DNA from: an uncultured Acetatifactor sp.
GTDB lineage: Bacteria > Bacillota > Clostridia > Lachnospirales > Lachnospiraceae
DNA: 64,000 nucleotides
Reading direction: 5' to 3'
Assembly (NCBI GenBank): GCA_949840885.1
Contig: CATKYJ010000011.1
Coordinates: 37,612-101,611, forward strand
Position numbers and translations under genes: made by a program. Within the stretch, counting starts at the first letter, position 1; each line of letters begins with the position of its first letter. Below, in pieces: positions 705 through 17,427 of the stretch. The notes beneath the pieces are model-generated. The model saw only the letters and a list, made by a program, of their open reading frames with translations. It searched no databases and was not told the origin of the DNA.

Positions 705-2541
705 CTTCTTTCTTCCCTTTCCTGCGGGCGACCGCTACCAGCCACCAGATGCCTGCCCCTGCCAGGGCCACCACCAGAGCCAGGATCCCCGCTTTTGCGG
801 GAGTGGGAAGCATTGCCAGCGGTGTGGCCAGGTCGTCCAGGATGGACTCTATAGCGCTGTCCCCATTTCCGCTGTCCCCGCTGCCGTCCTCACTGCCTCC
901 GGGTCCCCCCAGGGGGGTCTCCTCCTCGTCCAGGTCCTCGTACTCCTCAGGCTCGGCCAGCGGAGGCTCCTCCTCATCCACCACTACCACGGGCTCCTCG
1001 GGTTCCGGTTCAGGCTCCGGCGGCGTCACCACCGCCACGGGTTCCTGAGGCTCGGGGCCGGGCTCCTGCCCGGGCTCCGGCACCGGCGCCTGGGGTCCAG
1101 GCACCACTATGGTGTTCACATTGGTCACCGTGGGCACCGGTGTGTATATGAAAGTGAACAGGTTCTCCGAGGCGTCCGCCGCCAGGGTCTTGCCCAGGTT
1201 GTACGCCTGGGGCTGCCAGCCCTCGATGTACTGGTAGGCCACCACGGGCTTGTCGCCTACATTTCCGTAGTATACTGCACTGGGGTACAGGTCGTTGCCC
1301 TCCGCATCCCGGTACGCCACGGTGTAGGCCACCGTCTCCCCCTGGATGCCGTAGGCCACCACATAGTCCGCGTCCCCGGTCACCGTCACGGACGGGTTCG
1401 CCAGGCGGCTGCTGTCCGTGTCCTCTCCGCTGACGCGGAAGCCTTTGCGGTAGTACTTGCTGGCGCTGTCCAGGCCCACGCCCTTCTGGATGTCGAAGAC
1501 CACCTGTTCCCCATAGTGGAGTCCGGTTATGACACAGACCTCGCCGTCCAGGATGCTGACCGTAGCCCCGGCGTCCGTCAGGCGCTGTATCACGGATCCG
1601 TCTATGGTGCCCTGGGCCCCTGCGAACAGGCGCAGGGTGTAGGTGTAGTCCTCTGCTGCGGACACCGGCTGCGCCGTGCCCAATGCCATGCACAGAGCCA
1701 GGCCTGCGCCCAGGGCTTTCGCACCTGCCTTGGCCTTTATCTTATCTTTTGCTTTCTTCTGCTCTTTCACTCCCAGGATGGCCAGTATCAGGAACAGGAT
1801 CCCGCTGACCCCCGCAGCTATGATGTAGGGCACCAGGTCGTCTTCATCCCCGGTGCGCACGATCCCGGTCCTGGCGGAGCCGCCGTCCCCGCTGCCGCCC
1901 TGGCTGCCATCGTCTTCCACCGGCACCGGGTCGCCCTGCACGGTGCGCTCCTCCGTCCGGGTATTCACCGTGGTGGTATCCACAGCGAAGTTCATCTGGA
2001 GGCTTGCCAGGGTGTTCTGGTAATCGTTGCCCTGGGTCTCACCGTCCAGAGCCACCCGCAGGGTCACCGCCCCGCTCTGTCCGGGCTCTAAGGTATCCAG
2101 GTACAGGAAGTCCTCCAGGCCGCTGGTGGCGGCCTTTAAGCCCACGCGGCTACCGTTGTTCTCGCCGCCCACGGTGTCGCTGGTGAACAGGGTCTCCCGT
2201 GCGCCGTCAGGGGCTGTATAGACAAGCTCGTATTCATACGCGCCGCCGCTGGCGCCGCTCCCTGCCGTCTCCTCCAGGGACTGCAGCACCTCGTTGGTCA
2301 TGTACCAGTTGGACGCGGAGGCGTTGTCGTTCTTCAGATTCAGTGTAATGGTGATGTCGTCACCGGGCTGCAGGTCGTACACGGCGCTGTTCACGTCCGA
2401 TGCCGAGCGGTCCTCGGACAGCTTGTTGTCCTGGGTGAACGTCACGTTCCGCTCCGTTGCCAGGGTCTCTGCCTGCGCCGTGGCCGGCGCAAAGAGCAGC
2501 GCCCCCGCCAGGAGGGCGGATGTCAGTATTCTCTTCTTCAT
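688..2541 (-). CDS. Bipartite anchored surface protein of the SipW locus
   Basis: Surface protein of 617 residues with two secreted modules joined by an internal membrane segment. Signal peptide 1-24; an all-beta domain to about 210; a sorting-signal-like stretch (VRTGDEDD, then hydrophobic PYIIAAGVSGILFLILAI, then KEQKKAKDK) at about 225-270; a second signal-peptide-like stretch (ALCMALGTAQPVSAAE, about 278-295); a MucBP-like beta domain; a Pro/Glu-rich stalk (about 465-560); and a C-terminal membrane anchor with a basic tail. It reads as two anchored proteins fused in frame. AGGAGGGG precedes the start. It lies 13 bp after the second TasA-like gene and overlaps the SipW peptidase gene. The domain assignments are my reading; the fusion itself is plain in the sequence. 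Confidence 0.7.
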   Translation of the reverse strand: MKKRILTSALLAGALLFAPATAQAETLATERNVTFTQDNKLSEDRSASDVNSAVYDLQPGDDITITLNLKNDNASASNWYMTNEVLQSLEETAGSGASGGAYEYELVYTAPDGARETLFTSDTVGGENNGSRVGLKAATSGLEDFLYLDTLEPGQSGAVTLRVALDGETQGNDYQNTLASLQMNFAVDTTTVNTRTEERTVQGDPVPVEDDGSQGGSGDGGSARTGIVRTGDEDDLVPYIIAAGVSGILFLILAILGVKEQKKAKDKIKAKAGAKALGAGLALCMALGTAQPVSAAEDYTYTLRLFAGAQGTIDGSVIQRLTDAGATVSILDGEVCVITGLHYGEQVVFDIQKGVGLDSASKYYRKGFRVSGEDTDSSRLANPSVTVTGDADYVVAYGIQGETVAYTVAYRDAEGNDLYPSAVYYGNVGDKPVVAYQYIEGWQPQAYNLGKTLAADASENLFTFIYTPVPTVTNVNTIVVPGPQAPVPEPGQEPGPEPQEPVAVVTPPEPEPEPEEPVVVVDEEEPPLAEPEEYEDLDEEETPLGGPGGSEDGSGDSGNGDSAIESILDDLATPLAMLPTPAKAGILALVVALAGAGIWWLVAVARRKGKKEDEQQP

Positions 2542-2554
2542 GGTCTCTCCCCTC

Positions 2555-3277
2555 CTAGTCCAGGCTCAGAACGCCGTTTTGGTCTATGGTGACCCTGCGG
2601 CCCCACGCGCTCCAGATGGCGTCCTCTGCGTTGTGTTCCTGCACCCCATCCACGCGGGCCTCGATGCAGAACCGGGCGCCGTCGTATTCGTAGACCGTGG
2701 TGATGGTGGTGTACCTGCCGTCCGTCTCCCTGATCTCACTGACATGTCTTGCCACGCTGCCGTCTATGGTGAGGCCGTCGGCAAAGAGCGGAGTCTCGTT
2801 CCGGGAGTTCAGCAGCTTGTTGTAGTAGAGCACGGTACGCTCCTCAGTGGAGGCTTCGCTGTCCACCAGCCAGTCGCTGCCCAGGTTTACCAGGTTCAGG
2901 CCGATGAGCTCCGGGGACAGGGTGCGGATTTTTTCTCCGTTTCCGTCCAGCCAGTACTTGTGGATGCTGACGCGGACATATTCGTTGATGACGCCGCTGT
3001 TGTAGACATTTAACTGCTCCTTATAGGATGCGCCGGGCTTGATCTGCCCGCCCTCCGCCAGGAGGCCTTTCAGCAGCTCGCCCTCCACCGGAGCCCCATT
3101 CTCCACCAGGGTCACGCCGATCTCATGGAGCTGGATGTTGGCCGCGTAGTCGTCCGAGAAGTAGGTCAGCGCCGCCCTGGCCCCTCCGACGGAGCTGAAC
3201 AGCAGCAGGCCCGCCGCCAGCACGAACGCCGCTATGGTAGTAATGGGGGATGCCACTATCTTTTTAAGTCTCTTCAT
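2555..3277 (-). CDS. SipW-dependent TasA/CalY-like secreted protein
   Basis: Short secreted protein of 240 residues. A hydrophobic N-terminal segment ends at GARAALTYFSDDYAANIQL (about residues 32-50), the usual shape of SipW-type signal peptides, where cleavage precedes a 'tyFsD' stretch. The rest is predicted beta-rich with no cysteine cluster or anchor. Family members (TasA, CalY) polymerise into matrix fibres or sit on the surface; the exact role here is inferred. The gene overlaps the preceding one by 4 nt (ATGA) and has a strong AAGGAGGG site. The matching peptidase is encoded two genes downstream. Confidence 0.72.
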   Translation of the reverse strand: MKRLKKIVASPITTIAAFVLAAGLLLFSSVGGARAALTYFSDDYAANIQLHEIGVTLVENGAPVEGELLKGLLAEGGQIKPGASYKEQLNVYNSGVINEYVRVSIHKYWLDGNGEKIRTLSPELIGLNLVNLGSDWLVDSEASTEERTVLYYNKLLNSRNETPLFADGLTIDGSVARHVSEIRETDGRYTTITTVYEYDGARFCIEARVDGVQEHNAEDAIWSAWGRRVTIDQNGVLSLD

Positions 3278-3828
3278 TGGTCAATCCCTCCTTCCGTCCT
3301 GCCGGTGAGCACCTTGCCTGACCAGTCCACCGCCTGAGGCGCCACAGGGTTCCCGTCGCTGTCGTACTGCACCGGGACGGACTCGTAGATGACGACCACA
3401 TTACAATCGTCTCCCTCCTTTGCGTCCTCAGGGAAAGTGATCAGCACGTCCAGCTGGGTGGTCCTGGACTTCACCACCGTTCCGTCCTCGGCTGTGGTGG
3501 TTCCAGGCACTATGGTATTATAGTAGTAGTATCCGTCGGCTCCGGCCTCCCAGCCCTCGCCTGTGTAGGTCAGACCGTAAAGGCTGCCGCTGAATGCCCT
3601 GGCCCTTACATATACCGGGACGGCTCCCTCGTTGGCCACTGTCAGGTGCTTGGTGTGCTCCGAGTAAGTCTCCACGATCCGGGTCTCGCTGCCAAGGCTT
3701 AAGGTGTAGCCGCCTGAGGCGGTGGTATTCGTAGTGAAGTAGGCCCACGCGCTCCCCACCGTGGCGGTGAGCGCCATGCCCGCTGCAAAGGCGGATATGG
3801 CTGTCAGAAATACCTTGCTTTTTTTCAT
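3274..3828 (-). CDS. SipW-dependent TasA/CalY-like secreted protein
   Basis: Protein of 184 residues with a SipW-type signal: hydrophobic stretch 8-27, then GSAWAYFTTNTTASGGYTL, the typical cleavage region of the family. The mature part is a compact beta domain (hltVaNeGavPVYVRARafs), a pattern recurring in camelysin/TasA relatives. There is no anchor, so it is either released or held through fibre assembly. It sits between the accessory pilin and a second TasA-like gene, with which it is coupled by a 4-nt overlap. A G-rich stretch precedes the ATG. It could be a subunit of a second fibre or a coat on the sortase pilus. Confidence 0.72.
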   Translation of the reverse strand: MKKSKVFLTAISAFAAGMALTATVGSAWAYFTTNTTASGGYTLSLGSETRIVETYSEHTKHLTVANEGAVPVYVRARAFSGSLYGLTYTGEGWEAGADGYYYYNTIVPGTTTAEDGTVVKSRTTQLDVLITFPEDAKEGDDCNVVVIYESVPVQYDSDGNPVAPQAVDWSGKVLTGRTEGGIDQ

Positions 3829-3842
3829 CTCATCCCACCCCC

Positions 3843-5021
3843 CTACTCTTCACCGGGCGTCCCGGCCGGGATCTGTGTCCAGTTCCATACCAGACCCTGC
3901 CCGTCGTCCGCGTACTCGAAATGGTTCGTGATGGCGGATCCCTGTCTGCCGCTGCCGTCATATATGTTCCGGAAAGAAGCGATGTTGTCAAAGGCCGCGT
4001 CCTCCGGACTCACGTTTGTCATGGTCAAAGTCTGTACCTGGGCGCTGCCAGGGGCTGTCTGGTAGGTGGTTCCGGAGTAGGTCTCCGTTACCGTGACTTC
4101 GGCTCCCACCGGGATTCGCTCCAGGATCAGCTCACTCCGGGTTCCGGGTGCATTGAACGCGAGAGAGACTACATTGCTGTAAACCAGTTTCCCTCTAAGC
4201 GTTGCCTCCACGGTGAAGATAAATGTGGCAGGGCTGCCGGACACATACTCGGTCAGTTCCTTGTCGATCCTGAGGGCTCCGAACCTGTCGCTCAGGGCCG
4301 GCTTGGACTCGGCTGCGTTCATACCAGTGAGACTGTAGATCCATTCCCCCGGGTTGGAGGTTGCCGCGGTATTGTCGCCGCTCTCTCTGGTGGGCAGCGC
4401 CACCAGCTGGGGGCTGTAGGTGAATGTATAAGAGTCCGAGTAGGCGATGGTCCGAATCGGTTCCGGAATCTCCTCTGCCTCCTCCCGGACCAGATAGTCC
4501 TCCCGCTCCAGCCCGGCGCCTCTGGGAACCATCAGGTAGAGACCGGGATCCAGCTCGGAAAATTCCACCACATCGGCTCCCTCTGCCTTTACGGCAGTGG
4601 CAGCGGGTTCCACGTAGTTACCCTCCGCGAAGATGACGGCTGCGGCATTCTGCGCCTGGTCTTTCCATGCCTGGCGGAGAGCCTCATCCTCCAATTCCCC
4701 CACAGTGATATCCACATCCAGTCCGTCATAGGCATCCAGGACTTCCAGCCGATAGGCGTCATAGCTTTCCTCTTTCACGGCATCCGCCACCTTATACAGG
4801 TCGATTGCTACCTCCGGCGACTGGGCCTCCTCGCCTTCGGCCAGAGCTTTCGGCTCTACTCTTACCTGCAGTGTACAGGAAGCGGAGAGATCCAGGGGCG
4901 CAGCCGCGCGGGCCGTACCGCCGACCGCTGCAGCCACGCATCCCGCTGCCAGTATGGACGCAAGCGCCAGGCCCATCAGACGGCCCCTGAACCGCTTGCG
5001 GCTCTTCCATTTCATTTTCAT
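3843..5021 (-). CDS. Accessory pilin-like surface protein
   Basis: Secreted protein of 392 residues. Signal peptide 1-40 (basic start, hydrophobic LMGLALASILAAGCVAAAV, cut near ARA). An N-terminal domain contains IDLYKVADAV and FSELDPGLYLMV, which resembles streptococcal/clostridial pilin folds, followed by a Cna-B-like or DUF5979-like domain (FIFTVEATLRGK, GAEVTVTETYSG, about 250-330). I see no LPXTG-type signal or C-terminal hydrophobic anchor, unlike the two pilins upstream. It could be a base or accessory subunit, or be incorporated in another way. It lies 27 bp after the sortase gene, with AAGGAGGAAA before the ATG. Confidence 0.6.
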   Translation of the reverse strand: MKMKWKSRKRFRGRLMGLALASILAAGCVAAAVGGTARAAAPLDLSASCTLQVRVEPKALAEGEEAQSPEVAIDLYKVADAVKEESYDAYRLEVLDAYDGLDVDITVGELEDEALRQAWKDQAQNAAAVIFAEGNYVEPAATAVKAEGADVVEFSELDPGLYLMVPRGAGLEREDYLVREEAEEIPEPIRTIAYSDSYTFTYSPQLVALPTRESGDNTAATSNPGEWIYSLTGMNAAESKPALSDRFGALRIDKELTEYVSGSPATFIFTVEATLRGKLVYSNVVSLAFNAPGTRSELILERIPVGAEVTVTETYSGTTYQTAPGSAQVQTLTMTNVSPEDAAFDNIASFRNIYDGSGRQGSAITNHFEYADDGQGLVWNWTQIPAGTPGEE

Positions 5022-5048: not shown

Positions 5049-5960
5049 TTATTTGAATTCGTTGTCTCTCTTGAATTCCTCCAGCAGCTCCTCCCCGGTC
5101 TTGCCGGAACGTTTCCTGCCGGATATGGCCAGCATCACCACCAAGGTCACGAACAACAGCGGTATCCCTACAGCAGGGATCACATAGTAGGACGGAATTT
5201 TCCTGGCCTCCGCGGCGACTATGACCAGCTGCTCCTCCTCAATATTGTCGATTCTGTGTCCCCGCACCAGCATCCTGTGGGAATTGATCCCGTAGGGGGT
5301 ACAGGTGAGCAAAGTGCAGTAGTCCTTTCCCCGGGTCACGTTCAGCGCCTCCATCTGGGTAGGCTCCACGATGAGGATCTGATCCACCTCGTAGGTCAGT
5401 GTCCGGTTCAGCACCGTGAGGACGAAGACATCCCCTTTCTCCAGGCGGTCCAAATCCGTGAACAGCTTCGCAGAGGGCAGGCCCCTGTGAGCTGAAAGCA
5501 CGCTGTGCCGTCCCTCACCGCCTATGGGAAGACTGGAGCCCTCCAGGTGCCCTACCGCCACGTTCAGCACGGGGTCGCTGGTGCCGTGGTGCACAGGCAG
5601 GTTCACGCCTATCTTGGGGATGGAGATGTGGCCTATGATGCCGTTTCCGGCCACGTCCAGGACGCTGTAATACAGCTCATCCAGCTCCTCGTAATCCGAA
5701 TACGGCGCGCTAAGCTCCCGGAGCTTCACATTGTATTCTTCCGCCGCAGCGAAAAGGGCTTCGTAGTCCGTCTCATCCAACGCCGCCACCATCGCATCGT
5801 AATCCGCGATAGCCCGGGTCTGGTGGAAAGAGTTCCAGTAGTCGCTGACTGAGGGGTAGAGCATGACGCCCAGCCCTGTCAGCAGGACCACCGTCAGGAG
5901 GAAAGTGGAGAGAGAGCCCTTTTTCCTCCCCGCTTTCCCTGTGTTTTCTTTTTTCTTCAT
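5049..5960 (-). CDS. Class C (pilus-type) sortase
   Basis: Membrane transpeptidase that joins pilin subunits through their LPXTG motifs. The protein has 303 residues when started at MKKKENTGK, the first ATG before the basic/hydrophobic N-terminus; an in-frame extension upstream reads like non-coding sequence. N-terminal membrane segment about 17-36; catalytic His in LSAHRG; Cys in TLLTCTPYG (about 220); Arg in MLVRGHR (about 233); second membrane segment in the C-terminus (VIPAVGIPLLFVTLVVMLAI) followed by a charged tail. Two membrane segments are characteristic of class C. No clear DPW/DPF lid motif was found. It lies between the major pilin and an accessory pilin, as usual in pilus islands. 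Confidence 0.93.
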   Translation of the reverse strand: MKKKENTGKAGRKKGSLSTFLLTVVLLTGLGVMLYPSVSDYWNSFHQTRAIADYDAMVAALDETDYEALFAAAEEYNVKLRELSAPYSDYEELDELYYSVLDVAGNGIIGHISIPKIGVNLPVHHGTSDPVLNVAVGHLEGSSLPIGGEGRHSVLSAHRGLPSAKLFTDLDRLEKGDVFVLTVLNRTLTYEVDQILIVEPTQMEALNVTRGKDYCTLLTCTPYGINSHRMLVRGHRIDNIEEEQLVIVAAEARKIPSYYVIPAVGIPLLFVTLVVMLAISGRKRSGKTGEELLEEFKRDNEFK

Positions 5961-6093
5961 CGGTTTCCCCGCCAGTTGCTTCTTACATCTTATCCGGATC
6001 CATGTCCCGGAAAGAAATCTTCCAAGGAACTTTTGCTGCGCTTTGCCGGAATCGCTCTGCATCGACCATGCAGCCCCCTTTTTTCCGTTGCTC

Positions 6094-6165
6094 GCCGCAC
6101 ACCACGGGAAGGTGTCAGCCTCGTGCGGCATCCCCCGGGGCAGGGGTACGATCGTCCTGCCCCGG
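6094..6165 (-). other. Two hairpins between major pilin and sortase genes
   Basis: Two adjacent inverted repeats in the 291-bp gap after the major pilin: CCGGGGCAGG (6135-6144) pairing with CCTGCCCCGG (6156-6165), and GCCGCAC (6094-6100) with GTGCGGC (6123-6129). Neither is followed by a T-run on the minus strand. Partial termination or mRNA 3'-end stabilisation of the abundant pilin message is a reasonable inference. The rest of the gap (5961-6251) shows no gene. Confidence 0.45.
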
Positions 6166-6251: not shown

Positions 6252-7862
6252 TCAGTCACGTCCGCTCATGCGCTTCTTGGTGATCAGAAGTACGCCTGCC
6301 GCTGCTACCAGGATACCGCCTACCACGTAGAAGATTGTGGTACCGATGCCGCCGGTGGATGGAAGAGTTGCTCCTGTGCTGTTTTCTACCGTGGGTTTGA
6401 CAATCAGCAATACTTTCTCGTTGTCTTCAATCTCATTGTTCTTGTTTGTATCATGTGCAACATTAACTTCCTGAGGCTCAGTCATCAGATTATAGCCAGC
6501 GGGCGCTTCCGTCTCAACCAAGTAGTAAGTACCGTCTTCTAAGCCGTTGAAGCTTGCTTTACCCTGAGCATCTGTCACTACCTCTGTCGCATCCGCCTTG
6601 GTACCCCACTTAACTTCAGCCTTTACAGCCGGGTTCTGACCCTCAGCCTCTTTTGCTTCGATATACTGGTAATACTTCGCGTCAGTCGCAACACCTGTGA
6701 TATTGCCCTCATCGTCTTTCGTCACTTTGTCCACCAGAACAAATTTCGCGCCGCTCAGAGGGTTCTGACTTCCTGCAACAACCTTATTGATTTCGATATT
6801 TGCCGTGTAGAGCGTAACGTCTGATCCGGGTGTTTTTTCTGTCGTGGTGTTATTAGGATCCTTGCTGTACTCTAAATGTGCCTCGTTCTTCAGCGGGTTG
6901 GGAGTTTGTGTTTCAACTACGATTGCATTTTCATTTACGGTAGCGGTATAGGTAATCTCCACCGTCTCGCCGACGTTAAATTTCGTCATATCAAAAGTCA
7001 GCTTGAAATCGTAATCCGAACCATTCTTCTCTACCGTGATTCCACCGGCAGGTGAATCCGCAGAGACCGTGTTATTCGCATAGATGGTAGCATTCCCAAC
7101 CTTTACGGTTAAATCATCGTTAAATGTTAAGCCTGTGCCCATTTTATCGGTAACGATATAGGTATACTGGTCGTACCCCACCGTACTCGGCACCTCACCT
7201 GTAATGGTATAAGGCACGTTCTGGCCAACGCTAACATCGCCAGTCAGCGTAGTTGTCTTTTCAATCTCAGGCGTCTCGTTCTTGTCGTAGATCGTCACCG
7301 GGGTGCTGCTTGAAGCAGTGGTCAGATTAGCCAATGCACCGCTGTCGGTAGAAACGAAGTAGTAACCCATCTGATCTGCCGGAATTGTAATTTCCACTTT
7401 TCCGGTTGTGGAATTGAGTGTACCGTTAATGCCGCCTGTTAATGTTGCTTTCTGGGTATTCAAATACTGGGCAAATGCAGGTGCATCGGTTACATTTACA
7501 TTGTAGACACCCTCTACCGTAGTAGGAGTAATCTCTACACCATTCGCTTGCTGCACAGTCTGATCCATTTGAGCCAACAGACTATACACGGCAGAAGTAT
7601 TATCCAACTTGTAGCCATAGTTCGTTTCACCGTCAGCTGTTGCAGATGTAGTTACGGAGAATATCTTGTATGCTACATAAGGATAAGGCTGCGGGTCGTC
7701 TCCTTCTTGCACAGGCGGCTGCAGAACGGGATTCTCAATTACAATTTTTCCACCTTGCGGTGCAACGGGATCCTCACCTGTGGCCGATGCGGTGATGCCC
7801 ATGGCCAGAACCATAATGGCGGCCAAGGCAAGCGCAAATAACTTTCTCATTTTACCTTTCAT
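6252..7862 (-). CDS. Major pilin / LPXTG backbone subunit (SpaA-like)
   Basis: Backbone pilin of 536 residues. Signal peptide 1-27; an N-terminal pilin domain beginning around YVAYKIFSVTT; a middle domain (KTTTLTGDVSVGQNVPYTITGE, read in pieces); a C-terminal Cna-B/SpaA domain (INKVVAGSQNPLSGAKFVL ... DGTYYLVETEAPAGY) with the lysine and E-box glutamate expected for an intramolecular isopeptide bond. The sorting signal LPSTG is at about 500, followed by a hydrophobic span and KKRMSGRD. The neighbouring class C sortase should polymerise it. AAGGAAGG precedes the ATG. It lies 110 bp after the tip adhesin gene. Base composition is slightly more AT-rich than its neighbours. Confidence 0.92.
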   Translation of the reverse strand: MKGKMRKLFALALAAIMVLAMGITASATGEDPVAPQGGKIVIENPVLQPPVQEGDDPQPYPYVAYKIFSVTTSATADGETNYGYKLDNTSAVYSLLAQMDQTVQQANGVEITPTTVEGVYNVNVTDAPAFAQYLNTQKATLTGGINGTLNSTTGKVEITIPADQMGYYFVSTDSGALANLTTASSSTPVTIYDKNETPEIEKTTTLTGDVSVGQNVPYTITGEVPSTVGYDQYTYIVTDKMGTGLTFNDDLTVKVGNATIYANNTVSADSPAGGITVEKNGSDYDFKLTFDMTKFNVGETVEITYTATVNENAIVVETQTPNPLKNEAHLEYSKDPNNTTTEKTPGSDVTLYTANIEINKVVAGSQNPLSGAKFVLVDKVTKDDEGNITGVATDAKYYQYIEAKEAEGQNPAVKAEVKWGTKADATEVVTDAQGKASFNGLEDGTYYLVETEAPAGYNLMTEPQEVNVAHDTNKNNEIEDNEKVLLIVKPTVENSTGATLPSTGGIGTTIFYVVGGILVAAAGVLLITKKRMSGRD

Positions 7863-7972: not shown

Positions 7973-10900
7973 TCAATGCCTACCTCCTTTCTCTTTTCTG
8001 CGCCTCATGCCCAGACCGTACACAAGACTGGCTGCGATTACCGCAAGCCCGCCCAATGTATACATTGCGGTGCCGGGGCCGCCGGTTACGGGGAGCTGGG
8101 CTCCTGTGTTGTTTGGTATTGCAATTGTCCAAACCTTGCCATTGTCATCCACGGTGTACTTTGTATCCGAATTTGTAGCGTCTATTGCAAATTTACCATC
8201 CTCACTGATGAAAGCAGTAAAGAATGATTGGTTGGTTGGCACAACTTCCGCAATGCTGCCCACCTTACTGTCCAGGCCCTCTTTGATGTTGAAGACAAAA
8301 TCATTCGCAGAAAGCATGAAACCATCCGGCGCTTTTGTCTCACGGAGGAGATAAGTCTCTCCAACGGCGAATTTCTTTGTGCTATTGTGAATAACTATCT
8401 TTCCGTTTACAGCTTCCAGTTCCTCCATGATAAGGGTTTCGATCGTATCACCGCTTTCGCCCTTTGTCACTTGGTACAGATTAAACTTCGCTCCATCCAG
8501 TATCGGATATCCCTTTTCATTGGACTGCGCGTTTACTTTCACAATCTGCAATGTGTCGATCACCATCCGGCGGTTCTTTACCTGAAGTTCAAAGCTGTTT
8601 TCCTTTTCGTTATCGGTCAAAATGACATTTTCGTCATTCGGGAATCTGATGCCGACTACGTTCCCATCTATTTCGCGAGATTCGGAGATCGTACCCATCT
8701 CGACCTTGGAATCGAGAACCTTAAGCAGGAACGGGTATACTGTATAGTAGTCTATCAGCGGTTTTTCCACTCTGTCTTCTACGACAATGTAGTTGCCTAT
8801 ATTAAGCTCAATCTCTGCGCTGTTCGCACTGTCGGCTTTCATATATTTTTCATTAATTGAACTCTCAACTACTTTCGCATATCCGTCACTGCCTATCAGC
8901 AACTTGCAGACAACGGGTTTCCCGTTAATCAGGGCTTTGAGCTTTTCCTCTCTCTTTTCAGGTTCCTCTGCAAAGATAGCATCCCAGTCTTCCTTGGTAA
9001 TTTCTCCTGCCCGGATTGTGAAATCCAATCCTTCAAATACTGAGCTGGTCTTATTATCACCATCAACCTTTAGCAGCTTGACTGTCTGGGTCTTGGGCTC
9101 ATAGGTATTCGTGAAAGCTACTGTCACTGTACCATTTGCAGGGACATCTGCTATTGTAACTTTAGCATCCTGATCGAATAATGCGTCTTCTGCACTTTCT
9201 CCGCCGGTTTTAGACGGATCGAGCGCTGTGTCCACGCCATCGATCGTTATAGTGGTCGTGCGCAGCATATTGGGGATATCAGCACTTTCCCAAAGCTCAG
9301 TCACTGTATGCCTGCCCGGTGTTACCGTCTTGGTAATACTGTAGGTCCCGTTTTCGTTCTTTGTCAGCGATATCGGCGTTGTCTCATCGTCAAAGATAAA
9401 TCTCAGCTTTTCTAATATCCCGGCTTTTTCCTCCTCTGTTAAATCATCTAAGCCAACTATTTCCTTGGTCACTACAATGGTAGCGGCGCTGGGCTGAATG
9501 ACCGGACGAGAATATTCCGTTTCCTTGCCTGTTTCACCTTTGAAGTCGAACTTCACCTTTGCCGTATTATTACTGTAAAATCCTTCCTTACCGGCTGATG
9601 TTTCGCCTGTTCCGGCTTCGCCCTCACGAATATTCTCTGTACTTCCGTTTTTGAATTCTTCATAAGCAGCTTCCGTAGGTTTGATTCTTATGGTTACGGC
9701 ATAGGTATAGCCTGCTTCCAGTTTATAGTCATCAGTAAAATCAAGCTCAACCTTTTTCTCGGCCTCGTTGTAGGTTGCGGTCATGGAACCGCCATTCGGA
9801 TTTGTATTGTTCGCATCTGTGGATTTCGGCAGCGGCAATGTCACTGACAAATCTGTTCCCTTATTTGTGTTAGAACTTATCTCCGCTCCGGTATCCTTAT
9901 TAATGAGTGCCACTTTCAGCATCTGCGGAACACCCGGAACATCCGCGGCTGCGTCGATCTCTGCCCACTGACTCAGGATGTCGGTAATCGTTACATTATC
10001 GCAATTATACTGGACGATTGTCTCAATGATCGCATTGAAGTACTTTGCCAGATCGTTGGTGGCATCGACTTTGCCGTCCTGTATACCCGTAGCAGTTCTC
10101 ACTTTTTCAAGTAACTCTTTGGCTGTATACCTTTCTCTCGTTTTACTGTCTGTGTAAATAATTGTATTTGAATTCATATCTTTGCCGAAACCAATGGCAT
10201 AGAAAGAATCAGCTTTCCCAGCCAGAGCACCGGCGCCCATTATCGCGCCATTAAAGTCATCATCCTTAGTCTCATTTCCCCCTCCCTGCATTGCTGTCCC
10301 ATTATTATCAAGCGGGCCACATTTCTTACTGCCCCAATTGCTTATAACATTGCATACATGGTATGTTGGCTGACCATCCGTCAGGAAAATGACAACTCTG
10401 GTTGCATCACTGCGGGTTCCGCCCATTCCATTAGCTGCCTTTACAAGGCCGTCCTGGTAATTCGTACCACCCGACGGAGCCAGATTACTTGTGTCGGAGG
10501 TCCCAGACCAGCCAGAAGAAGTAGTCAATTTAATGTACTCCTTGACTCCATTGCCACTTTGCCATCCAATGGCAGACTTGGCCGAACCGGCAAATGTCAC
10601 CAGATTATACTGCGCGTCGATTTTCTTCTCTGCCAGCTGGTCAATCAGATTATTTATCGCCGTTCTGACATCGTCAATGCGGCGGTACCCTATAGATGCG
10701 TTGTTATTCGTATTCACGCCATAGTTCATGGAACCGGACGTATCTACCACAAACATAACATCATACTTAGCCGGCTTTTGGTCTTTTCCGGTTGCAACTT
10801 CACCCGTGATATCAAGAGTCAAATCATACAGATCAGTCGCTCCCTCTACTTTCGTAACGTATTTATTATGTCCCATCTCCTGTACTCTGATGGGCTCCGG

Positions 10901-13900
10901 AGTAGGTACGGTTGTCATCTGGACTACGGGACGAGGATATTCCAGCGGATCATGCTTTACAGCAGCGTCTCCTATTTTATAGCTGTACTCTACTTTAGCG
11001 CTGTCCTCCACGTTGCAAAAGAATCCCAGCTGCCCCTCAGAGCCTGCTCCTGTATTCGCCTCTCCCCTATCCGGATAGCTGTATCCGTTTATCCGATATT
11101 CAGGGTCCGCAGCTTCCTTATTTATCTTAATCTTTGCGGTTACAGAGTACGTATAGTTTTCTTTCAATTCGTACCCAGGATTAAAAGTCACATTTAATCC
11201 ATTTCCGCTGTCATACTCGGCTTTCATGCCGGACGCCGCGATCTCGTCAGCGGCCTCATTTCCGGCAGCATCCGTAATCTTGCACACCCAGTTATCTGCA
11301 CCCGGATTTTCTACTTTACTCCCCTCGCCGTCCACGATATAGACCACATTGGTCAGCCGGTCTGTAAAGCTTACATCAACCGCTGTGATTTTCTTCAGGT
11401 TAGCCTGAAACTGTTCAAAGAATTTTGTCAGGTCTGTGCTTGCGGTGGCAAAGCTCTCTCCGGCTCCGGAATTCTTTGCCGCTTCCGCAACATCGGTTAA
11501 AATCTGCAGCGCGGTCTTTCCGGAACTGCCCATGGTAGTAGGCTTCGTCATATCCGCGCCAAAGCCCACCGCGTAGAAATAATCGCAATCGCTTCCGATC
11601 ATTCCTGCACCCTCTACCGCTTTCGTCACACAGACAGTATTTGTAGAGGAGCCCGGTCCGGCAACGCCGCGGCCGCTGTTATAATAGGTAGGCGCTCCGT
11701 CCGTCAGGAAGATGATGATTCTCTTCGCATCTCTCTTGTCTGCACTCACTGCCGCTCCGGCCTTTTCCAGAGCGTCCTGGTAGTTCGTTCCGCCGGAGGC
11801 GTCCCCCGGCAATCTGTTGATTAAAGTTGCTCCGCTCTGCCACGAACTTGCATTCCTTGTGCTGGCCGTGCTGGCAAAGGTAACCAGCTTATATCTGGCA
11901 TCAATCGCGTCGTCATTTTCCAGGCTGTTTACCAGCTTTGTGATCTGTTCATTTACCAAGGCCTGGCGAGTCTTATTATAATGGTACTCATGCCCATCCA
12001 CATCAAAGTCCATGGAGCCTGAAGTATCCACCACAAATAAGATATCCAGTTTTGCCTTTTCCTTTATGCTTCCGATAGCGCCCTTTACGTTCAGGGTCAG
12101 TTCATAGACATCCTCCATCCCCGAAACAGGCTCAACCTGTTTCTCATGAGCAAGACCGCCAATAGGAGCAATCTGCGAGAGCTGACTGTCAGAGTCCACC
12201 GTGTATGTGCTGGTACCGGCCACATCGGAAAAGCTGTCCAGAGTAAATTCCGCTTCCACACCGCTTCCGGTCTTTGTTCCGCTGCCGGTCATCTTCTCTG
12301 TTTCGGTGTCCGCAAAATGTACTATCTCATACTCAGCGGCATCTGTTACATTCTTATCCGTCACCTTGACGCTGACAGGGGTCTTAGGCTCTACCTCCTC
12401 CCCTTCCACGAAGAAGCCTACATTCAGCAGCCAGTCCGGCTGGTAGCCCAATTCTTCACAGCGTTTCATGTACTGTTCAGAGTCTTTTGAATATTCGATT
12501 ACCTGCAGCTGCGCTCCCTCCGGAATCCGGGCGCTCTCCGCATAGTTGACGGTCACGATATAGTTCGCAGTTTCTTTTGTCTGGAACAAAGTCAGCTCGT
12601 CGCTGAGGATTTCTACCATGGTCTCCCTGACCAGAGTCGCCACCATAGCGTCCACGGCATCTCCCGCATTGTATACCAGCACCACGGGTGCCCCTGCGGC
12701 ATTGCCGTCCCCATCCAGGCACTGTACCGTAAAGGTTACGCTGCCTTCCGGCTGGATCGTCTCACCGTTTACCGTGAACCGCAGTCTGTAGGATACTTCT
12801 TCCCTTATGATTTCCACGGCGTCATCGGATGTATTTCCGTCCTCCGCAGACGCCTGGTCGGCAGTTTTCTCATCCCCGCCGGCATTCTCTGCCCCAGGCT
12901 CCGCTTCCGTGCCGGCCTCCGGTGCAGTCTGTGTATCGGGTGTATCCTGGGTCGCCTGCCCGTCTGCCTCCGTCTCCGTTCCCGCCGGCTCCTGCTCATC
13001 CACCACGGGCTCGATGCCCTGGTCTTCCTGTCCGGCCTCTTCAGGCTCTGTCCCGGCTTCCGTCTGGACAGACTCCGCCTCCGGGACTTCCAGATCCTGA
13101 GATTCTGTCTGGGCAGACTCCGCCTCTGCGGGTGCCTGACTCTGGTCTTCCTGTCCGGCCTCCTCAGGCTCTGTCCCGGCTTCCGTCTGGGCAGGCTCCG
13201 CCTCCGGGACTTCCAGATCCTGAGATTCCGTCTGGGCAGGCTCCGCCTCTGCGGGTGCCTGATCCGGGGTTTCGGGTTCCTGGTTCTGGTCTTCCTGCTC
13301 CTGATTTACCTGTCCCTGAGTCTCGGTCTTCCTGGCGATCACTTCCGCCACCAGCCGGGCCTCCTCGGGAATGTTGGCATCCTTGCCGTACACCGCCGTC
13401 ACGCGGATCTCGCTGTCCTGATATACTTTCTGAAGAACCACCGGCTCCTCTGTCTCTATGGTTTTGAAGCATTCCTCGCCGTGCACATGCTCCACTGCCG
13501 CCAGCCGGCCGCAGATGCAGACGGTCTCGGTTCCATAGCACTCCCCGCTGTGCACATGGGCTCCCTCGCCCTCGGGCACCTCACAGGTCAGTTCTTCGGT
13601 CCACTCGTAGCACTCGTCCGTGTGCTCATGGGGCCCTTCGGGTATCTCGCAGACCAGATCTTCGGTCCATGCGTAGCATTCGTCTGTATGGGTATGGCCC
13701 TCTTCCTCCGGAATCTCGCAGGTGAGCTCATCTGTCCACTCATAGCACTCGTCCGTATGGGCATGGCTCTCCTCTTCGGTGAGGCCGCAGGTCAGTTCGT
13801 CATGCCAGGCGTAGCACTCGTCCGTATGTTCATGGCTTTCCTCGGCGAGTCCGCAGGTCAGCTCCTCATTCCATGCATAGCACTCGTCCGTATGCTCGTG

Positions 13901-14650
13901 ACCCTCTTCCTCGGACGCACAGGTCAGGGCGCCCTTTACTTTTGTATAGCACTCTGCGCCGTGCTGATGGCCATCCCCTGCCGTGCAGATCAGGTCGCCT
14001 TTCACTTTCGTATAGCACTCCGGGCTGTGCTGATGGCCCTCTGTTTCCTCCTGGCCGCAGACCAGGCCGCCCTTTGTCTTTGTATAGCAGTCGGCGCTGT
14101 GCCGGTGCCCTGACTCCTCTTCCCCGCAGGTCAGGTCGCCTTTCACTTTCTCATAGCACTCCGGGCCGTGCTGATGCTCCGTGCCCTCGGCCTCGCAGAT
14201 GAGCCCGCCCTGAGTCTTGGTGTAGCACGCCTCGTCATGCACATGCCCCCCGGACTCCTCTTCCCCACAGATGAGCACTTCCTGCTCCGTGAAGCATGCG
14301 GCGTCATGTACGTGGAGTTCTCCATCGGCCTGCATCTCGGCCAGGGTACATACCAGCTCCCCGCCCTCGTTGTAGCAGTTCTCGTCATGGGTGTGAATCA
14401 CGTAGTCCGCCTGCCCGCAGACGAGCCCGCCCTCGCTGTTGTAGCACTCGTCCGTGTGCTGGTGCATGGCCAGCCGGCAGTCAAGCTCCTTTTCTCCCTT
14501 GTCAGCGGTGAGCGCCTGGCCGTTCATGGTCAGCGCCGCCACGGTTCCCGCTGTCACCAGCAGGGCCAGGCACAGAAACGCCGTCAGCCGGACCTTATAT
14601 TTCTTCTGCTCCCCCAAGATTCTTGCAGCCTGTTTCCTCAAAGATTCCAT
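7973..14650 (-). CDS. Giant vWA pilus tip/adhesin with Cys-His repeat array, LPVTG
   Basis: Cell-wall adhesin of 2225 residues. Signal/membrane segment about 20-45; then 15 copies of HxHxxxC(Y/F), each usually followed by LxC about eight residues later (about 60-395); an acidic Gln/Glu/Thr/Pro linker with a long tandem duplication (about 430-590); beta domains; two vWA domains with MIDAS DTSGSM (about 875 and 1305) and FLTDG; further Cna-B/SpaA-type domains (ETKAPDGFML); sorting signal LPVTG (about 2187), a hydrophobic span and RRRKEKGG. It fits a pilus tip protein such as the vWA adhesins of streptococcal pili. The Cys-His array may bind zinc or form disulfides (inference). AGGAAGGAG precedes the start. 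Confidence 0.9.
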   Translation of the reverse strand: MESLRKQAARILGEQKKYKVRLTAFLCLALLVTAGTVAALTMNGQALTADKGEKELDCRLAMHQHTDECYNSEGGLVCGQADYVIHTHDENCYNEGGELVCTLAEMQADGELHVHDAACFTEQEVLICGEEESGGHVHDEACYTKTQGGLICEAEGTEHQHGPECYEKVKGDLTCGEEESGHRHSADCYTKTKGGLVCGQEETEGHQHSPECYTKVKGDLICTAGDGHQHGAECYTKVKGALTCASEEEGHEHTDECYAWNEELTCGLAEESHEHTDECYAWHDELTCGLTEEESHAHTDECYEWTDELTCEIPEEEGHTHTDECYAWTEDLVCEIPEGPHEHTDECYEWTEELTCEVPEGEGAHVHSGECYGTETVCICGRLAAVEHVHGEECFKTIETEEPVVLQKVYQDSEIRVTAVYGKDANIPEEARLVAEVIARKTETQGQVNQEQEDQNQEPETPDQAPAEAEPAQTESQDLEVPEAEPAQTEAGTEPEEAGQEDQSQAPAEAESAQTESQDLEVPEAESVQTEAGTEPEEAGQEDQGIEPVVDEQEPAGTETEADGQATQDTPDTQTAPEAGTEAEPGAENAGGDEKTADQASAEDGNTSDDAVEIIREEVSYRLRFTVNGETIQPEGSVTFTVQCLDGDGNAAGAPVVLVYNAGDAVDAMVATLVRETMVEILSDELTLFQTKETANYIVTVNYAESARIPEGAQLQVIEYSKDSEQYMKRCEELGYQPDWLLNVGFFVEGEEVEPKTPVSVKVTDKNVTDAAEYEIVHFADTETEKMTGSGTKTGSGVEAEFTLDSFSDVAGTSTYTVDSDSQLSQIAPIGGLAHEKQVEPVSGMEDVYELTLNVKGAIGSIKEKAKLDILFVVDTSGSMDFDVDGHEYHYNKTRQALVNEQITKLVNSLENDDAIDARYKLVTFASTASTRNASSWQSGATLINRLPGDASGGTNYQDALEKAGAAVSADKRDAKRIIIFLTDGAPTYYNSGRGVAGPGSSTNTVCVTKAVEGAGMIGSDCDYFYAVGFGADMTKPTTMGSSGKTALQILTDVAEAAKNSGAGESFATASTDLTKFFEQFQANLKKITAVDVSFTDRLTNVVYIVDGEGSKVENPGADNWVCKITDAAGNEAADEIAASGMKAEYDSGNGLNVTFNPGYELKENYTYSVTAKIKINKEAADPEYRINGYSYPDRGEANTGAGSEGQLGFFCNVEDSAKVEYSYKIGDAAVKHDPLEYPRPVVQMTTVPTPEPIRVQEMGHNKYVTKVEGATDLYDLTLDITGEVATGKDQKPAKYDVMFVVDTSGSMNYGVNTNNNASIGYRRIDDVRTAINNLIDQLAEKKIDAQYNLVTFAGSAKSAIGWQSGNGVKEYIKLTTSSGWSGTSDTSNLAPSGGTNYQDGLVKAANGMGGTRSDATRVVIFLTDGQPTYHVCNVISNWGSKKCGPLDNNGTAMQGGGNETKDDDFNGAIMGAGALAGKADSFYAIGFGKDMNSNTIIYTDSKTRERYTAKELLEKVRTATGIQDGKVDATNDLAKYFNAIIETIVQYNCDNVTITDILSQWAEIDAAADVPGVPQMLKVALINKDTGAEISSNTNKGTDLSVTLPLPKSTDANNTNPNGGSMTATYNEAEKKVELDFTDDYKLEAGYTYAVTIRIKPTEAAYEEFKNGSTENIREGEAGTGETSAGKEGFYSNNTAKVKFDFKGETGKETEYSRPVIQPSAATIVVTKEIVGLDDLTEEEKAGILEKLRFIFDDETTPISLTKNENGTYSITKTVTPGRHTVTELWESADIPNMLRTTTITIDGVDTALDPSKTGGESAEDALFDQDAKVTIADVPANGTVTVAFTNTYEPKTQTVKLLKVDGDNKTSSVFEGLDFTIRAGEITKEDWDAIFAEEPEKREEKLKALINGKPVVCKLLIGSDGYAKVVESSINEKYMKADSANSAEIELNIGNYIVVEDRVEKPLIDYYTVYPFLLKVLDSKVEMGTISESREIDGNVVGIRFPNDENVILTDNEKENSFELQVKNRRMVIDTLQIVKVNAQSNEKGYPILDGAKFNLYQVTKGESGDTIETLIMEELEAVNGKIVIHNSTKKFAVGETYLLRETKAPDGFMLSANDFVFNIKEGLDSKVGSIAEVVPTNQSFFTAFISEDGKFAIDATNSDTKYTVDDNGKVWTIAIPNNTGAQLPVTGGPGTAMYTLGGLAVIAASLVYGLGMRRRKEKGGRH

Positions 14651-14683: not shown

Positions 14684-15379
14684 TCAGTTTATCAATCCAA
14701 TTTCCTGCACCGGCCATATCCGGAACGTGATCCTGCCTACGATCTTGCCCGCCTCTATGCAGCCTACCGTGCTGCTGCGGCTGTCTATGCTGGTGGAGCG
14801 ATGATCCCCCATGACGAAGCACCTCCCGTCCGGAACCTGGTATGGCAGGTCGATGTCGCACTGCCCCAGGGCTTTCTCCGCCAGATACGGCTCCTCGATG
14901 GCCTCCCCGTTGACGTAGACATTGCCGTCCGCGTCTATGTCCACCCAGTCCCCGGCTGTGGCGATGACCCGCTTCACCAAGATGGTGTTGTTGTAGTAGA
15001 ACGCCACCACATCGCCGATCCGGAACTTCGCCCCCGACACGGCCACCACGATGTCCCCGTCCTGCAGGGTCTCCGTCATGGAGGTGCCGTCTATCTTCAG
15101 CACCGGCAGGAACAACATTGCGACGAGCACGGCCACGGCCGCCACTACCACCAAAGAGAAGCTGGTGCTCCTTAAGACCTTTCTGTAACGGCTCTTGTGC
15201 CTGGTCCTGTGGAGCTCCGCCTCCAGCTGTTCCAGGGTGGGGATCTGCGTCCCGGCTCCCCCGGATGGCTCTGTCCCGCTTAGTTCCTCCAGCCCTATCA
15301 CATCCAGGTCGTACACGTATATCTCCTCGACGGATGTTTGGCCGGGTTCCTCAGGCCGAGCTTTGCGTCTGCGCTTCAT
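14684..15379 (-). CDS. Pilus-locus signal peptidase I (S26A)
   Basis: Type I signal peptidase of 231 residues, first gene of the pilus operon. A long charged cytoplasmic N-terminus (about 1-75) precedes one membrane span (SFSLVVVAAVAVLVAMLFL), the catalytic Ser in DGTSMTETL, the catalytic Lys in ILVKRVIATAGD, and the conserved GDHR near the C-terminus. Serine-lysine chemistry separates it from the SipW-type enzyme at the far end of the operon. Pilus islands often carry such a dedicated peptidase (SipA/LepA); in some streptococci it acts as an assembly chaperone. SD GAGGAA lies 7 nt before the ATG. The gene starts 30 bp from the left inverted repeat of the invertible segment. Confidence 0.93.
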   Translation of the reverse strand: MKRRRKARPEEPGQTSVEEIYVYDLDVIGLEELSGTEPSGGAGTQIPTLEQLEAELHRTRHKSRYRKVLRSTSFSLVVVAAVAVLVAMLFLPVLKIDGTSMTETLQDGDIVVAVSGAKFRIGDVVAFYYNNTILVKRVIATAGDWVDIDADGNVYVNGEAIEEPYLAEKALGQCDIDLPYQVPDGRCFVMGDHRSTSIDSRSSTVGCIEAGKIVGRITFRIWPVQEIGLIN

Positions 15380-15408
15380 GTAAAAGTTCCTCTATCCTGT
15401 CTGACGAG

Positions 15409-15434
15409 ATACCTCATAATAAACATTATGAGGT
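15409..15434. repeat. Left recombination site (IR-L) of invertible segment
   Basis: A 26-bp site, 24/26 identical to the reverse complement of 15662-15687. It is itself palindromic: ten-base arms (ACCTCATAAT and ATTATGAGGT) flank an asymmetric AAAC spacer. The 16-base core CATAATAAACATTATG is identical in both sites. Two arms around a short spacer is the usual layout of tyrosine-recombinase crossover sites. Its opposite orientation to IR-R predicts inversion rather than deletion. Confidence 0.88.
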
Positions 15435-15599
15435 TTTAAATGGCATGAAAAAATAAAAAATCCAAGCAGAAACCCATTTTAGCAAAATGTTTAGACGTAT
15501 CTTTTGACTTAGAATCTGTTATAGTTAATTCACAAACCGCGGAAGCGCAATAAAAGGGCTCCAACTGTATAAATACTTTTGGAAATTTCGTTTATGATA

Positions 15600-15628
15600 T
15601 TGAATTTTCAGAGTTGGAAGAGTATAAT
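15600..15628 (+). promoter_or_regulatory. Sigma-70-type promoter inside invertible segment
   Basis: TTGAAT at 15600-15605, 17-bp spacer, consensus TATAAT at 15623-15628. It is the best promoter match in the segment and reads rightward in the sequenced orientation, so it would not serve the leftward pilus operon until the segment flips. Confidence 0.65.
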
Positions 15629-15650
15629 GATTTCTGAGTGAAAGAGTCAT
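15621..15650 (-). promoter_or_regulatory. Weaker leftward promoter candidate in invertible segment
   Basis: ATGACT at 15645-15650, 18-bp spacer, TATACT at 15621-15626, reading toward the pilus operon in the sequenced orientation. Its -10 overlaps that of the rightward promoter. If active, the sequenced orientation would not be fully OFF. Confidence 0.35.
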
Positions 15651-15661
15651 TTTCGGAAGTT

Positions 15662-15687
15662 ACCGCATAATGTTTATTATGCGGTAT
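15662..15687. repeat. Right recombination site (IR-R) of invertible segment
   Basis: Inverted partner of 15409-15434, 24/26 identical, with arms ACCGCATAAT/ATTATGCGGT around GTTT. The two mismatches are compensating, so each site keeps its own palindrome. The recombinase stop codon (15677-15679) lies in the shared core, so the encoded C-terminus is unchanged whichever way the segment faces. Confidence 0.88.
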
Positions 15688-16534
15688 TTTCGTTTGGCAG
15701 GACGAGTCCCAGGCTGTCCAGACGCCTTTCCTGCATCTCACAGCTTATGAGGGTGTAGATGCGGGTGGTGTTGACATTGGAATGACCCAGCAGGTCAGCC
15801 AGGCGGGAGAGATCTTTTTCTACATTATAATATGTGACCGCGAAGAGGTGGCGGAGATTGTGGGGGAAGACTTTCCCCTCTTCCACTCCTGCCTCCCTGC
15901 ACAGGGCTTTCATGGCATGCAGGATGTTGCTGCGGTCCATGGGCTGTCCGCCGCGGGTGACGAAGACGCTGCCGTTTTGGATGCCTGCGGCTTTTGTGTA
16001 GCGCTTCAGTTCCCGGCAGAGATCCAGGGGCAGGATGACCGTGCGGGTCTTTCCCTTGAGTGAGACCGTGGCGCGCCTGGTCTGGAGGGAGGCTACGGTG
16101 ATGAAAGGGAGTTCGCTGATGCGGATGCCGGTGGCACAGATGGTCTGCATGAGCAGGGACAGGCGCAGGTTCCCCCGGTGCCTGGCGGTCTCCACCAGGC
16201 GGACATACTCCGTTTTGGTCAGTTCCAGTTCTTTGGAGCGGAAGACGGCTTTCTGGACTTTAAAGGTGCGTACTACGCAGTCGGGGCAGCCTGCGAAGCG
16301 CAGGAAGCTGTTTACGGCGGCCAGCATGGAGTTGGCGCTGGCTATGGCGTAATGGGCGGACAGGTGCTGTTTGTAGCGGATGGCGGCGTCTTTCGTGACG
16401 GGCTGTCCGTCCAGGAAAGCGGCAAAGGCTCTGATGTCCCGCATGTATTTTTCTATGGTGGCTTTGCTTTTCTCTTCGGCCTGCAGGCTGTCTTTGAATT
16501 GGCCTATGATCGGGTTATCTATTGTAAGTCCCAT
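15677..16534 (-). CDS. Tyrosine recombinase (XerC/D-like), probable inversion enzyme
   Basis: Site-specific recombinase of 285 residues. An N-terminal SAM-like core-binding domain (IGQFKDSLQAEEKSKATIEK, about 8-95) is followed by the catalytic domain with all expected residues: Arg in ATGIRISEL, Lys in LKGKTRTV, His-x-x-Arg in PHNLRH, His in LLGHSN, Tyr in TTRIYTLIS. The start is the ATG at 16534, preceded by GAGGAGGG; the in-frame extension upstream has no such support. The gene ends inside IR-R, which makes it the obvious candidate for flipping the 15435-15661 segment. A hairpin (CCCTGCC/GGCAGGG, 16551-16570) lies in its leader just ahead of the SD. It is not flanked by other phage or conjugation genes. 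Confidence 0.92.
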   Translation of the reverse strand: MGLTIDNPIIGQFKDSLQAEEKSKATIEKYMRDIRAFAAFLDGQPVTKDAAIRYKQHLSAHYAIASANSMLAAVNSFLRFAGCPDCVVRTFKVQKAVFRSKELELTKTEYVRLVETARHRGNLRLSLLMQTICATGIRISELPFITVASLQTRRATVSLKGKTRTVILPLDLCRELKRYTKAAGIQNGSVFVTRGGQPMDRSNILHAMKALCREAGVEEGKVFPHNLRHLFAVTYYNVEKDLSRLADLLGHSNVNTTRIYTLISCEMQERRLDSLGLVLPNENTA

Positions 16535-16952: not shown

Positions 16953-17384
16953 TTATACTTTGGTATATATGTCTTTCGCCTGGCGGTACTCTTCAAGGGT
17001 CTTTCCGGCCACCTCACAGGCTTCTTTCAGAGTACAGCGGCTTGACTTCATAATGTTCTCTATAATTTCGGTTATTTGGTGGGCCTCTCCCTCCAGTCTG
17101 CTGTCTTCCATCAGTTCGCGTATGGCTTGGCACATATTGTAGTTTCCTCCCTCGGTTTTATAAGTTTCTTCGTTTTCGTTGAATTTATTTATCCCCATAA
17201 GCACGCTGAGCGTCTCGGCGGTCTCTTTGTCCATGCTTTGGTAGGCCGGGTCGCTGGACAGAAGCTCCAACTGCCCCAGGTGTTCCCTTGTATCCTTTCG
17301 CGTTATTTTTATTCCTGCTTTATGGTAAGATCTCCTCTCTTTTATGGGTGTGCGAAAAAATAGTTTTTTGCTGAAAAAGAGCAA
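16953..17384 (-). pseudogene. 5'-truncated duplicate of the Rpn-like nuclease tail
   Basis: The open frame of 143 codons is homologous to the full gene at 17428-18405 only over its last ~105 residues (LLSSDPAYQSMDKETAETL to the end; DNA about 16953-17268). The first ~38 codons are unrelated, and the nuclease core is missing. The homologous block is a direct repeat of 17429-17744 with many point differences, so the duplication is not recent. It is most likely a non-functional remnant, though a small protein could still be made. Confidence 0.65.
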
Positions 17385-17427
17385 CTATTGCCTTTCGCCC
17401 TTCAGTACTTGTCTGGTGGCGTTCCTG

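Follow-up and report, generated by a model that had tools for sequence, protein, structure and literature searches.

A probable recombinase-driven invertible promoter upstream of a sortase-pilus operon in an uncultured Acetatifactor species

A tyrosine recombinase gene, a paired repeat and a nine-gene pilus operon

The window, the whole 64,000-nt stretch of Acetatifactor DNA analysed here, carries a tyrosine recombinase gene and a nine-gene sortase-pilus operon, with a 227-nt segment between them (Table 1). The operon lies on the minus strand and its first gene, encoding a signal peptidase I, begins 29 nt beyond the nearer of two recombination sites. A class C sortase, an LPXTG major pilin and a large LPXTG adhesin are encoded together, as is found in sortase-dependent pilus operons. 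The remaining assignments are less firm: the two putative TasA/BsaA-like proteins scored below the curated TIGR04090 cut-off and had no Pfam match, and the SipW-like signal peptidase, above the cut-off of TIGR02228, reached 67.5 bits against NF046067 (SipW), below its cut-off of 190. The operon seems to extend past the window start, where an AP2-domain protein, a class B sortase and a BTAD regulator are encoded (G000:C11:34622-37655, L199). In the N-terminal region of the giant adhesin (window 13460-14480), Cys/His-containing repeats with a unit of about 66-72 nt form an array; the orthologues of the adhesin vary in length (2225, 2080, 1811 and 1596 aa).

Table 1. Features of the locus, in window coordinates
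Feature	Position	Strand	Remarks
SipW-like signal peptidase	75..704	-	TIGR02228 91.5 bits, cut-off 51.85
617-aa protein	688..2541	-	unmatched in Pfam and NCBIfam; G244 and G284 encode similar proteins at this position
Second SipW-dependent (BsaA/TasA-like) protein, weak match	2555..3277	-	TIGR04090 26.7 bits, cut-off 60
SipW-dependent (BsaA/TasA-like) secreted protein, weak match	3274..3828	-	TIGR04090 23.9 bits, cut-off 60
Putative minor pilin	3843..5021	-	DUF5979
Class C (pilin) sortase	5049..6131	-	NF033745 266.5 bits, cut-off 160
SpaH/EbpB-type major pilin, LPXTG	6252..7862	-	NF033902 123.2 bits, cut-off 95
2225-aa LPXTG surface protein, putative tip adhesin	7973..14650	-	two VWA domains, DUF7604, SpaA fold
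Signal peptidase I, first gene of the operon	14684..15379	-	TIGR02227 117.8 bits, cut-off 47
Operon-side recombination site	15409..15434	.	24-nt core 15411-15434, spacer 15421-15424
Predicted invertible segment	15435..15661	.	227 nt
Conserved block CTATAACAGAT..AAGTCAAAAGATACGTCTAAA (minus strand) within the segment	15490..15525	.	from orthologue comparison
Predicted sigma-A promoter, TTGAAT-17-TATAAT, inside the segment	15600..15628	+	kept in five of six orthologous copies
Terminator-like hairpin: recombinase-side site plus T-run outside	15661..15696	+	predicted end of the OFF transcript
Recombinase-side recombination site	15662..15687	.	24-nt core 15662-15685, spacer 15672-15675
Tyrosine recombinase, 285 aa, predicted flipper of the adjacent segment	15677..16534	-	Pfam Phage_integrase E 1.9e-27

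The sequence-only reading had described two 26-bp inverted sites, identical at 24 of 26 positions, on either side of a 227-bp non-coding segment, and both the coordinates and the degree of identity were reproduced. Within their 24-nt cores, the operon-side site reads ACCTCATAAT-AAAC-ATTATGAGGT on the plus strand and the recombinase-side site ACCGCATAAT-AAAC-ATTATGCGGT on the minus strand, so that the pair has a matching, asymmetric crossover region; the mirroring of the two mismatches can be seen in both cores, as that reading held. The longest stop-free frame of the segment spans 51 codons, in agreement with its being non-coding. The exact 16-nt core CATAATAAACATTATG has one copy on each strand of the window and no other. 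When three or fewer mismatches were allowed, 0.28 matches to it were expected in shuffled sequence and 1 of 100 shuffles reached two, counts on which a chance palindrome was rejected as the origin of the sites.

The recombinase carries the full catalytic set that had been ascribed to it: R138, K162, H225xxR228, H251 and Y260 were invariant in 20 aligned sequences, its own included. It scored below the cut-offs of the XerA, XerD and XerC models, and the best-scoring solved chains were Xer proteins. With 28.4 bits against PRK09870 (cut-off 221) and 24.3 bits against PRK09871 (cut-off 222), it falls outside the FimB/FimE family. Its stop codon does lie in the recombinase-side site, as proposed, more precisely in the outer arm (15677-15679), one base outside the 4-nt spacer. 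Inversion would thus leave the reading frame and the protein unchanged.

The promoter match in the segment faces the recombinase

The segment had also been read as promoter-bearing, with no direction stated. A promoter match is indeed present inside it, as judged by sequence, and the best match points at the recombinase, away from the operon. The region held two promoter matches against 1.2 in shuffles and a single match is not significant alone; we credit this one because it is conserved, not for its own score. A candidate facing the operon in the present orientation (ATGACT-18-TATACT) was rejected, as its -35 element is not conserved in orthologues. Since the best match faces the recombinase, the assembly is predicted to show the OFF state of a switch. 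The conserved block of Table 1 lies about 75 nt upstream of the promoter match; it is kept in five aligned orthologous segments and recognisable in the sixth (G256).

On the operon strand, no terminator-like site was detected between 15300 and 15800, the one hairpin found there being on the opposite strand, where it coincides with the recombinase-side site and its T-run. As the recombinase gene is upstream of the operon on the same strand, with no terminator between them on that strand, read-through could give the operon basal expression in either state.

The unit is conserved in orthologous copies

Of the genomes of the genus, 138 with that of the window, 6 gave a recombinase match at E ≤ 1e-85. 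Six orthologous copies of the locus, counting the window, are found in five genomes, and in all of them the recombinase, both sites and operon genes are kept. The sequence-only reading had named the absence of the repeats beside a conserved recombinase-pilus pair as grounds for abandoning it; the repeats are present in 6/6 copies. In G284:C108, G244:C7 and two copies in G310, the recombinases are 78-80% identical to that of the window, and the sites, the promoter and the second conserved block align across the whole segment. The copy at G256:C81 is more distant (recombinase 67% identical, sites with spacer AGTT); adhesin, pilin and secreted-protein genes follow it, and no promoter was recognised in its segment. 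The spacer is AAAC in four copies, CGAC in G310:C221 and AGTT in G256, matching within each pair. A recombinase in G237, 60% identical, is accompanied by one site only.

As far as translations show, the nine genes of the window recur in unchanged order in G284, and eight of them in G244, which lacks the signal peptidase gene. The G310 copies run to near their contig ends, through a signal peptidase and then the adhesin in C221 (identical to L079, a named record of an uncultured Lachnospiraceae bacterium) and through the adhesin in C67. The inner arm of the operon-side site has diverged in G244. The promoter faces the recombinase in five of the six copies, and the sixth (G256) stands in the same sense by its conserved block. 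Because none of the six is in the opposite orientation, flipping at the pilus locus itself is a step that we infer. The window's own genome holds the segment once and in one orientation, with no flipped form on another contig.

A family of recombinase-site pairs is widespread in Clostridia

Related recombinases with adjacent site pairs form a family that is widespread in Clostridia. A first scan covered 52 recombinase loci, a subset of all matches. The search zone began 60 nt ahead of the recombinase end and closed 840 nt past it. Of 45 loci with 600 nt or more of downstream sequence, 40 had an inverted pair in this zone, and of 47 upstream stretches 2 had one. Named genomes were scanned independently (at least 576 relatives confirmed, 80 kept): the recombinase was followed by a site pair in 68 of 70 loci, and upstream controls gave a pair in 3 of 74. 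The pairs of L112, L128 and L154, three among the 68, were doubtful as first picked. These three and L056, whose best repeats were likewise doubtful, were left out of the site comparison; the pairs of L112 and L128 were found by the arms-only search described below and entered the spacer and promoter tallies.

To avoid a bias towards matching spacers, sites were picked by their arms alone. This search returned two sites in 109 of 143 loci, corresponding to 102 unique pairs, and in 101 of these the 4-nt spacers were identical in inverted order, an agreement expected by chance in about 0.5% of cases each. There were 74 distinct spacers, of which one was palindromic against 6.1 expected. The arms are thus common across the family and the spacer is private to each pair. 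The record of Hungatella hathewayi WAL-18680 (G149, NZ_JH379027.1) had 11 spacers among the 12 copies examined, and L125 and L143 are further copies in it.

At the arm threshold, 34 of the 143 loci lacked two sites. Arms were degenerate and spacers matching in L013, L161, L164, L168, L169, L173 and L125, the first of these being the third cassette of the window's own genome, with spacer CGCC. Some of the 34 carry other repeats; only the first site was found in L039, L053 and L081, and no site at all in four G029 loci, L040 and L067. The sole case with sites in direct order is L166 (Hungatella, G149:C1:3232001-3239800), whose assembly is uncertain because a run of 200 N lies between its two sites; it was left out of the promoter, first-gene and T-run counts below. 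The inner, segment-facing half-sites are more alike within a pair than the outer ones and many repeats extend inward beyond the 24-nt site, observations that may both partly reflect how repeats were picked. An excess of contig ends within 400 nt 3' of the recombinase (20 of 143 loci, and 9 of 143 on the 5' side; p 0.06) was considered as proof of mixed orientations and discarded.

Predicted segment promoters and a terminator-like outer flank

Promoter-like matches 30-59 nt before the exit site were counted in 118 segments: 103 were found against about 11 in shuffles, and a somewhat looser rule placed an exit-proximal promoter in 107 of the 118. The match faced only the recombinase (OFF) in 80 segments and only the target (ON) in 23, implying either that the OFF orientation dominates or that our promoter reading is incomplete. 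Outside the recombinase-side site, in the reading direction of the OFF transcript, a run of at least 5 T in 9 nt was present at 52 of 101 loci; the same test at the other three flanks gave 8, 13 and 12 of 101. Given this statistical enrichment, it is likely that the recombinase-side site also serves to terminate the OFF transcript, which would shield the recombinase gene from antisense transcription.

These data bear on a switch of the cwpV type, in which the promoter, for instance that of the recombinase gene, would lie upstream of the segment and inversion would make or break a terminator in the read-through transcript. The cwpV switch of C. difficile works in this manner (PMC2784873), and at our locus the recombinase gene is upstream of and co-directional with the operon and the sites are palindromic. 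On inversion, however, the family T-run would stay put, as it lies on the outer recombinase side, and the conserved promoter match is inside the segment. The sole hairpin detected in 15300-15800 is on the opposite strand, and we regard this arrangement as quite unlikely.

The first downstream gene was directed away from the switch in at least 92 of 106 loci, a lower bound since the window's own first gene was miscalled (a longer antisense frame in a 1.5-kb stub). Among 58 named loci (58 of 59 first genes, L103 with its masked letters being left out), the commonest Pfam domains of the first gene were Flg_new (6), DUF7601 (6), SpaA (4), dockerin (4), Flg_new_2 (4), LRR_5, SLH, DUF5979, TetR_N and Peptidase_M73 (3 each) and GGDEF (2). 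Surface-type domains therefore head the list, and regulators and enzymes are also present.

A sister cassette stands in both orientations

The same genome carries a second cassette (C16:10358-11480), whose recombinase is 65% identical and whose spacer is ATGC. It lies upstream of an AP2-BTAD regulator and a 1944-aa protein (L008, G000:C16:10358-19751), the latter with a highly repetitive region. G284:C125 carries the corresponding stretch of about 9 kb at 98.6-99.4% identity. Between the two, the flanks are collinear and identical at 2356/2382 and 1236/1236 positions, and the 216-bp segment is identical at 215/216 positions only when inverted; uninverted, it matched in 110 of 239 alignment columns. 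Two close alleles of the sister cassette thus stand in opposite orientations, which is the strongest evidence for an inversion switch. The promoter match faces the regulator in G000 (predicted ON) and the recombinase in G284. A second natural inversion was observed between L061 (G239) and L064 (G218), from two other genomes of the genus, where the flanks run in the same sense and the segment aligns only when inverted. Overall, 14 of 75 segment pairs with similarity matched better inverted, the 75 still including a few duplicate loci, all counted as same-orientation. The pair L144/L166 scored equally in both senses and was uninformative because of runs of N (146 and 200).

Could the recombinase or the sites be inactive at the pilus locus, the segment being a fossil in a fixed orientation? 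The uniform orientation of the six orthologous copies and the diverged inner arm in G244 would fit a locked switch. Against this, the window recombinase is intact with all its catalytic residues, internally matching site pairs persist at 67-80% recombinase identity even where the spacer differs, and a sister cassette of the same genome exists in both orientations; we consider a locked switch improbable. A role of the sites in integrating or excising a mobile element, or in a Xer-like dif function, is extremely unlikely, Xer resemblance of the recombinase notwithstanding: 101 of the 102 unique pairs have their sites in inverted and not in direct order, the sites of the window enclose no cargo gene, and homologous segments are found inverted between genomes whose flanks are both fixed.

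A recombinase paralogue lacking its catalytic residues

At 6 of 106 loci (L054, L060, L061, L068, L069 and L070, in G218 and G239) and in the third cassette of the window's own genome (G000:C16:81991-90350; L021 3992-12351), the first gene after the switch encodes a homologue of the recombinase. The K, HxxR, H and Y residues are all lost in 7/7 of these paralogues, which have NPRCLWKMY or SPRCLWKMY where the recombinase has FPHNLRHLF. A search for relatives gave 663 proteins at E ≤ 1e-20, with the PRCLW motif in 114 of the 120 listed; since a motif script left most of the 120 ambiguous owing to an N-terminal LGH, the PRCLW count alone was used. If the paralogue were made only in the ON state and still bound the sites, its likely effect would be a locked or biased switch. 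A giant protein follows the paralogue in the window's own genome (L021) and in G239 (L200). Over 57% of its length, the paralogue of G239 is identical to a protein of Acetatifactor muris, which points to Acetatifactor as the probable genus.

A model for the switch

We conclude that the locus is very probably a self-contained DNA inversion switch, in which the recombinase would flip the 227-bp segment and a promoter within it would drive the pilus operon in one orientation. This upholds the central proposal of the sequence-only reading, a recombinase-controlled invertible promoter, through the conserved repeats in 6/6 copies and the sister cassette in both orientations. According to our model, the tyrosine recombinase acts on the two adjacent sites, and the segment promoter, connected to the operon in one orientation, would be cut off from it in the other. 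In the OFF state, the transcript would end at the recombinase-side site, whose palindrome and T-run resemble a terminator. In the ON state, it would meet a palindrome with no T-run behind it and could continue into the genes for the signal peptidase, adhesin, pilin, sortase and SipW/TasA-like proteins. The spacer AAAC would let the pair recombine with itself and not with the genome's other two cassettes (ATGC and CGCC).

A broader reading is that Clostridia harbour a family of self-addressed promoter switches, with private spacers, a site acting as terminator and, in one branch that this genome also has, a dead paralogue that binds the sites and locks the ON state, the pilus operon being one output. 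We put this forward tentatively, as a possibility that falls somewhat short of probable. A private 4-nt spacer would permit many switches in one cell without cross-recombination.

Relation to known switches

Recombinase-driven promoter inversion is classical. The fimS element of E. coli is a promoter segment that inverts; a tyrosine recombinase gene adjoins it and a fimbrial operon lies downstream. The locus described here has the same layout, a promoter segment and an adjacent tyrosine recombinase gene upstream of a fibre operon. It differs in that fimS has two recombinases (FimB/FimE), whereas a single one, outside that family, is present here, and in that the fimS fibre is of the chaperone-usher type and ours a sortase pilus. 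The RecV switches of C. difficile (PMC5903667 and PMC2784873) share a tyrosine recombinase, short inverted repeats, surface and signalling targets and a clostridial host. The recV gene is not next to cwpV, and its product acts on several switches with mostly unrelated repeats, whereas in our family every cassette comes with an adjacent recombinase of its own and with sites that combine common arms and a private spacer. The cwpV promoter is moreover placed outside the segment, and the promoter match here is inside. Phase-variable sortase-dependent pili in a gut commensal are also described for Bifidobacterium breve (PMC9187656), where switching occurs by replication slippage, in contrast to the DNA inversion proposed here.

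The closest published set is that of Jin et al. (2025, Microbiome; PMC11892184), who describe Inverton group 139, associated with invertase group 35, as 33 invertons, 32 of them in Clostridia, adjoining tyrosine-type recombinases. In one example that they list, from Clostridium sp. D5, 205 bp separate the 26-bp repeats. Orientation changes at the level of reads are given there for Clostridium sp. D5 and Intestinimonas butyriciproducens, together with one case of surface-dependent orientation. Our locus has the trait of these groups, a clostridial tyrosine-type recombinase within 5 kb of an inverted-repeat segment, and ACNNCATAATnnnnATTATGNNGT is provided for comparison with the group 139 repeat motif. 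Group 139 probably includes the present family. The words 'pilus', 'pili', 'sortase' and 'spacer' do not occur in the available text of Jin et al., nor does that text mention a site terminator or a dead paralogue. In the open-licence literature we found no clostridial sortase-pilus operon reported to be under an invertible promoter. To our knowledge, four points are new: the targeting of a sortase-pilus/SipW operon, the rule of private spacers, the proposed role of a site as terminator and the dead paralogue.

If the model holds, single gut Lachnospiraceae cells would turn their pili, the 2,225-residue adhesin and the secreted fibre proteins on and off together, with a bearing on adhesion, recognition by the immune system and exposure to phage. 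Conserved arms, a private spacer and a recombinase directly upstream make up a sequence rule that could serve to find switches in assemblies, also of uncultured Clostridia, and to pair them with their enzymes, and mutually non-reacting recombination pairs of one common fold would be useful tools.

Elsewhere in the window, the longer of two adjoining genes (17428-18519) had no Pfam match; over 16953-18519 the two genes have in common a 300-nt repeat at 88% identity.
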